Source: Acidobacteriota bacterium (GTDB taxonomy: Bacteria; Acidobacteriota; Vicinamibacteria; Vicinamibacterales; 2-12-FULL-66-21). Taken from it: DNA of 64,000 bases. A program made the translations under genes and the position numbers. The DNA lies in assembly GCA_016184105.1 (NCBI GenBank), contig JACPDI010000012.1:134506-198505 (forward strand). Reading direction: 5' to 3'. The first letter of the stretch is position 1, and the number at the start of each line of letters is the position of its first letter. Under the pieces are notes generated by a model. It worked only from the letters and a program-made list of their open reading frames with translations. It had not been told where the DNA came from and made no database searches. Below are positions 52,384 to 64,000 of the stretch, piece after piece.

Positions 52384-52440
52384 GAAGGGGACAGTCACCC
52401 TTTTCGTCCGGGTCTCGCGAAAAGGGTGACTGTCCCCTTC
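52384..52440. repeat. REP-like palindrome, copy A
   Basis: Perfect 23-bp inverted arms (52384-52406 and 52418-52440; core GGGGACAGTCACCCTTTTC) around an 11-nt loop. Copy B is at 63801-63857. The layout is that of REP elements mobilised by RAYT-type transposases, none of which is in this window. It lies immediately beyond the 3' end of dinB. Confidence 0.85.
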
Positions 52441-63683: not shown

Positions 63684-64000
63684 ATGCCGGGGTGGGACGA
63701 GTTCCAGGGAGTCAACGAGGCGTACGTAGCCGAGCTGTACGAGAAGTACCGTCGCGATCCGGGGTCCGTGGACCCCGGATCGCGACGGTATTTTGAGCAG
63801 AAGGGGGACAGTCACACTTTTCACAGTGATGCGACGAAAAGTGTGACTGTCCCCCTTTCCTCTCAGATCGTCGGCGCGGTGAACTTTGCGCAGTCGATCC
63901 GCCGCTACGGCCACCTGGCGGCGCAACTCGACCCGCTTGGCAGCAAGCCAAGCGGCGATCCCTCGCTCGACCCGGCGACACACGGCATCACGGAGGAGGA
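63684..64000 (+). CDS. sucA: 2-oxoglutarate dehydrogenase E1 component, N-terminal part (runs off window)
   Basis: The frame is open from the ATG to the window end (105 codons). NEAYVAELYEKYRRDPGSVD near the start and IVGAVNFAQSIRRYGHLAAQ with LDPLG...DPSLDPATHGITEE later are the conserved N-terminal segments of the TCA-cycle E1 component. Between them, codons about 40-58 (QKGDSHTFHSDATKSVTVPL) are supplied by a REP-like palindrome that keeps the frame open. A perfect 44-bp palindrome also lies in the codons just before it. TAGAAT stands 9 nt before the ATG. Confidence 0.88.
   Translation, partial: MPGWDEFQGVNEAYVAELYEKYRRDPGSVDPGSRRYFEQKGDSHTFHSDATKSVTVPLSSQIVGAVNFAQSIRRYGHLAAQLDPLGSKPSGDPSLDPATHGITEE
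63747..63790. repeat. Perfect 44-bp palindrome inside the sucA coding region
   Basis: Two 21-bp arms (63747-63767 and 63770-63790) with a 2-nt loop and no mismatch; the inner arm is GATCCGGGGTCC. It encodes YRRDPGSVDPGSRR, a conserved stretch of E1, about 21 codons from the start. Confidence 0.95.
63801..63857. repeat. REP-like palindrome, copy B, in frame inside sucA
   Basis: Perfect 22-bp arms (63801-63822 and 63836-63857; core GGGGACAGTCACACTTTTC) with a 13-nt loop. Compared with copy A at 52384 one arm base differs and its partner differs to match, so pairing is kept. Confidence 0.9.

Follow-up and report, generated by a model that had tools for sequence, protein, structure and literature searches.

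How a palindrome of a mobile type that is normally found between genes comes to be read as protein, within a gene for a metabolic enzyme, is the question raised by the end of the 64,000-nucleotide stretch of acidobacterial DNA analysed here (hereafter, the window), where the gene sucA for the 2-oxoglutarate dehydrogenase E1 component begins. A sequence-only reading of the window had proposed that a REP-like element was inserted in frame in the N-terminal linker of that enzyme and is translated there. The features on which the argument rests are the following.

63684..64000, forward strand: start of sucA (2-oxoglutarate dehydrogenase E1, 953 aa), continuing past the window end; whole gene at L009:685-3546, identified by ORF, Pfam and NCBIfam.
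63747..63790, forward strand: second coding palindrome, with 21-bp perfect arms and a 2-nt loop, encoding YRRDPGSVDPGSRRY (residues 22-36).
63801..63857, forward strand: REP-like element, with 22-bp arms and a 13-nt loop, encoding residues 40-58, KGDSHTFHSDATKSVTVPL.
63801..63822, forward strand: left arm AAGGGGGACAGTCACACTTTTC (family arm consensus, AAGKGGGACAGTCACACTTTCC).
63836..63857, forward strand: right arm GAAAAGTGTGACTGTCCCCCTT.
52384..52440, no strand assigned: second copy of the REP family in the window (AAGGGGACAGTCACCC / GGGGACAGTCACCC variant), where a 302-aa ORF and a DinB-like ORF face each other with their 3' ends.

The element in sucA (AAGGGGGACAGTCACACTTTTC-ACAGTGATGCGAC-GAAAAGTGTGACTGTCCCCCTT) forms a perfect 22-bp inverted repeat around its 13-nt loop, and its 57 nt begin at codon position 1 and comprise exactly 19 stop-free codons within an intact ORF of 953 aa, downstream of which lies an E2-like ORF; the claim that it is carried without a stop or frameshift was therefore borne out. 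The conserved E1 segments that had been said to continue on both sides were recovered by Pfam, with 2-oxogl_dehyd_N (residues 9-40) upstream of the element and E1_dh, Transket_pyr and OxoGdeHyase_C downstream, and the protein scored 1077 against NCBIfam model PRK09404 (cut-off 764). In an AlphaFold2 model of the N-terminus (105 residues), helices were predicted at residues 10-24, 31-40 and 58-80, and the REP residues 40-58 appeared as a low-confidence coil between the last two of these, as would be expected of the tolerant linker that had been suggested; the mean pLDDT of the model was 70.6, and it is therefore supportive only. Translation of the element in E1 would yield the tryptic peptides GDSHTFHSDATK and SVTVPLSSQIVGAVNFAQSIR.

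A search of the 4.2-Mb genome with the half-site GGGGGACAGTCACNCTTTT, at no more than three mismatches, returned 127 + 119 matches (246 in total), as compared with 0 for a reversed control pattern, corresponding to a family of approximately 120 elements. Because shuffled windows held 0-1 inverted repeats with arms as short as 12 bp, and because of the contrast between those 246 half-sites and the empty control, the inverted repeat in sucA is not a product of chance. From 95 distinct elements collected with their flanks, spread over many contigs, it was established that the two 22-nt inverted arms (consensus AAGKGGGACAGTCACACTTTCC) are approximately 99% conserved at most positions, and that conservation drops sharply at the variable loop and beyond the arms, with loops and flanks differing among copies. 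The 79 elements with enough flanking sequence have convergent coding frames on either side in 17 cases and divergent ones in 0, in agreement with the assumption that the palindrome is normally intergenic, and intragenic cases could be recognised for only 8 of the 95 elements; the copy at 52384..52440 is an example of the ordinary extragenic placement. The family is thus a REP family in the general sense, that is, a high-copy, dispersed, short palindrome that is mostly extragenic and near 3' ends. Flank positions 3 and 5-6 outside the arms vary from copy to copy, and were nonetheless observed (in 81 elements) to be complementary within individual copies at a higher rate than in shuffled sequences.

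The partner to be looked for with such a family, a RAYT transposase, is present. The genome contains two Y1_Tnp (RAYT-type) genes, one of which (L204:2346-3032, 228 aa) has the sucA-type repeat on both sides, with one repeat upstream and the other overlapping its stop codon, so that a cognate Y1 HUH transposase gene is flanked by the repeat. Its protein matched NF047646 (REP-associated tyrosine transposase) with an E value of 3.8e-16 and 59.3 bits, below the cut-off of 80. The other RAYT-like gene (L203 2413-3309) also matches NF047646 below the curated cut-off, and is flanked by a different repeat of its own, AAAAAGGGGTCGGGAGCC / AAAAAGGGGTCGGGAGCCTTTTT. The GTAG tetranucleotide that marks the stem foot of GTAG-type REPs is absent from the arm consensus AAGKGGGACAGTCACACTTTCC, and the arm contains, as GGGGACAG, the GGGGWSAS motif as defined in PMC3733652; by motif, the repeat would accordingly be assigned to the GGGGWSAS (TIRYT) class and not to the GTAG class.

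No related E1 protein in the comparison (20 relatives taken from whole genomes, plus a further set drawn from GTDB contigs) has the REP residues, an absence that rules out the element as an ancient, E1-wide feature. The linkers of those relatives are unrelated in sequence and usually consist of W-T-P-P followed by a low-complexity stretch. From the TRxxF motif to the next conserved helix, 53 relatives have 27-44 residues, as compared with 32 in the present protein, 19 of which are contributed by the element; since the total length remains within the range of the relatives, the native linker has been largely lost. Judged from these sequences, the event in sucA must have been a replacement, or an insertion followed by a deletion, rather than a plain insertion, and the original proposal of an insertion into the linker holds as to frame and site and fails in that the insertion was not clean. 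The segment is thus very probably, on sequence comparison, a lineage-specific copy of a RAYT/TIRYT-associated REP-like element that replaced most of the native N-terminal linker and is translated.

The second palindrome of sucA (TACCGTCGCGATCCGGGGTCC gt GGACCCCGGATCGCGACGGTA), which the sequence-only reading had not pointed out, lies 10 bp upstream of the REP element and encodes a peptide that is itself near-palindromic. No other copy of it was found in the genome, and it was ruled out as a second mobile family on that ground. Relatives encode DPxSVDxxTRxxF at the equivalent position, without a long palindrome. Template switching has been reported to make imperfect inverted repeats perfect, altering several adjacent residues in the process (PMC8604942, PMC8794818, PMC6649704); with those inverted repeats and coding palindromes as a model, and with an ancestor reconstructed from genus-level relatives alone, the comparison suggests that the 21-bp hairpin arose from a short quasi-palindrome around GTCCGTGGAC that was perfected in this manner. 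When both stems are folded together as RNA, the first 221 nt of sucA reach -122.1 kcal/mol, as compared with -77.6 for shuffles (z -10).

The sucA case had been offered as an example of a REP element turned into protein sequence, which it appears to be, and it is not an isolated one. Intragenic copies were called where a stop-free frame had the codon usage of a coding sequence to either side of the element, or where a domain spans it, and in-frame copies lying within recognised domains were identified on this basis in at least six genes besides sucA:

TrmFO (L015:1302-2864): element at 230-249; Pfam and Thermus alignment.
Thiolase FadA (contig C40): element at 251-269.
FadB-like 3-hydroxyacyl-CoA dehydrogenase (contig C40): element at 395-414.
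UbiE-type methyltransferase: element at 153-172; Pfam.
ABC exporter, nucleotide-binding domain: element at 685-703; Pfam.
PLP enzyme: element at 270-290; Pfam; the weakest case.

The copies in FadA and the FadB-like gene lie approximately 3.5 kb from each other. In the alignment with the sequence of the Thermus TrmFO structure, the match stops at residue 183 on one side of the element and starts again at 183 on the other, and native loop sequence is missing around the element in TrmFO and UbiE as well as in sucA; FadA, set against L283, looks as though it had gained 16 residues almost cleanly, for an 18-residue element. An open frame in a recognised gene, together with absence of the element from orthologues, was found for sucA, TrmFO and FadA. 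In an eighth intragenic case, the reading frame of a Cof-type HAD hydrolase gene (L011 1957-2568) is shifted by a copy close to its 3' end, and the gene is probably broken. Seven of the eight intragenic copies are therefore in frame, an excess with a probability of 0.003 under a neutral expectation of 1/3 that is to be read as a trend only, because recognition favours intact genes and broken ones are harder to spot. Five of the in-frame cases involve elements of 55, 58 or 61 nt, so that the frame must have been kept through additional gain or loss at the junctions and not through simple insertion; a frame probability based on lengths divisible by three was dropped, as the in-frame cases include non-multiples of three. 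Several long ORFs that run through elements were set aside as antisense or spurious, on the basis of codon composition and the lack of Pfam matches. The accepted cases provide a clear set of natural loop replacements in housekeeping enzymes, and they caution that annotated proteins in such genomes include transposon-derived segments.

The strict arm pattern was not found in 11 other genomes of the family; several of these genomes have related arms, such as AAGGGGGACACTCAC in genome G004 and AAGGGGGACAGGCAC in G007. The same TrmFO loop carries other REP-class palindromes in G001 (KGDSHLF...KKVTVPF), G002, G004 (where it is imperfect) and G009 (loci L219-L228), and the same FadA loop carries other, unrelated coding palindromes in G007 and G004 (three genera counted; L277, L281 and L286). 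Further translated elements were identified in relatives: G007 has one in a TPP enzyme (L248), G009 has one in a protein with a carboxyltransferase domain (L253), and G004 has a tandem REP array that is translated as a linker (ESVTVTVPSTESGTVTVPAPESVSVPVSERGTLTV) in a TPR protein (L259 738-2888). A REP match in G001 near the orthologue of the ABC exporter (L249) was rejected, being intergenic between two genes, and single-arm matches inside ORFs of relatives (L251, L263) were set aside when the second arm was not found. Because of the palindromes in the TrmFO and FadA loops and of the further translated elements, the carriage of translated REPs is, from these sequences, a habit of the family, with some loops hit repeatedly. 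It is possible, albeit somewhat unlikely, that these enzyme loops (TrmFO, FadA and perhaps the E1 linker) are recurrent landing or exchange sites that are overwritten by the successive REP families of each lineage, with a domesticated transposase system renewing the same loops. The presence of different palindromes in different genera makes tolerance versus active targeting a testable matter for the TrmFO and FadA loops.

The arrangement of repeats around the transposase gene, taken together with what is known of its enzyme class, suggests that a Y1 (HUH) transposase acting on a single-stranded hairpin would spread the copies, most of which would persist at intergenic 3' ends. The minority inside genes would be retained only in flexible loops or linkers whose reading frame they leave uninterrupted, and would contribute protein sequence there with little or no effect on fitness. 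One objection to this account, according to which E1 simply has its own linker here and the palindrome is a coincidence, can appeal to the variability of that linker in sequence and length, and is next to impossible: a perfect 22-bp stem identical to a family of 246 half-sites excludes coincidence, and the idea is refuted by copy number and identity. It is almost as improbable that a high-copy repeat was misjoined into sucA during assembly. The source is a 69-contig assembly, in which repeats of approximately 60 bp present a risk, but the sucA copy has its own loop, lies deep within a 252,750-bp contig and is exactly in frame; six other genes are alike with different loops, and a misjoin would not preserve both halves of one gene.

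Transposition followed by tolerance in a linker is also preferred over two explanations of a different kind. If the sucA palindromes were kept for their RNA, two stable adjacent hairpins close to the start of the sucA-sucB transcript would control how it is translated or how fast it decays, with the peptide as a by-product, a view to which the z of -10 for the 5' fold lends some support, as does the presence here, 10 bp apart, of two of the three strongest inverted repeats of the window. Such a fold, however, is expected from any inserted perfect palindrome, the mid-gene copies in TrmFO (230-249), FadA (251-269) and the ABC exporter (685-703) make a 5' regulatory role unlikely, and equivalent hairpins are absent from related sucA genes; this explanation is accordingly regarded as improbable. 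Rather less so, and still unlikely, is the acquisition of the gene copies without transposition, through template switching or gene conversion that would place a REP arm into a loop or exchange one palindrome for another. The loss of native loop sequence around the elements in sucA, TrmFO and UbiE is consistent with such a process, as are the different palindrome classes in the TrmFO and FadA loops of different genera and the perfect hairpin, unique to sucA, that adjoins the REP element; against it stand the near-identity of the arms throughout the genome, the transposase locus that they flank, and the apparently almost clean gain in FadA.

Precedents for translated palindromes are known (PMC3733652, PMC10969869). 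GTAG and CGTC REPs, which have GTAG or CGTC at their ends, are mostly located at 3' ends or between convergent genes, with some copies wholly inside ORFs and translated, and in recB of two Xanthomonas species different REPs have been reported at roughly equivalent positions (Di Nocera et al. 2013, PMC3733652). The present family resembles them in being composed of short, high-copy palindromes with a bias towards convergent genes and with translated intragenic copies, and differs in that its arm begins AAGGGGGACAG (GGGGWSAS class) and in that the host genes are metabolic and tRNA-modification genes. The passages of PMC3733652 consulted make no mention of intragenic copies of the GGGGWSAS class, and a search of open-licence papers turned up no account of such repeats being translated; the present cases add the GGGGWSAS repeats of Acidobacteriota to the palindromes that code for protein. 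In the TIRYT/TnpA-Y1 subclass 2.1, Y1 transposases are flanked by inverted repeats that contain GGGG[AT][CG]A[CG], Acidobacteriota account for one sharply delimited group, and the TIR families reported occur either as single copies or in moderate abundance (PMC3733652, PMC6006769); the motif and the repeats around a Y1 transposase are shared here, whereas the present family comprises approximately 120 elements that are closed palindromes, some of them translated. Rickettsia palindromic elements (RPEs), as summarised in PMC10969869, are approximately 150 bp long and lie in frame in unrelated metabolic genes of a reduced alphaproteobacterial genome. By description alone, the present elements are similar in being palindromic and in frame in unrelated metabolic genes; they differ in their length of approximately 57 nt, which falls short of the approximately 150 bp characteristic of RPEs, in the 4.2-Mb size of their genome, and in the RAYT-like gene that accompanies them.

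Apart from the copies enclosed within genes, some REP copies in this genome lie at the ends of reading frames, where they encode the C-terminus of the gene upstream together with its stop codon (L013, L014, L038, L173 and L199).
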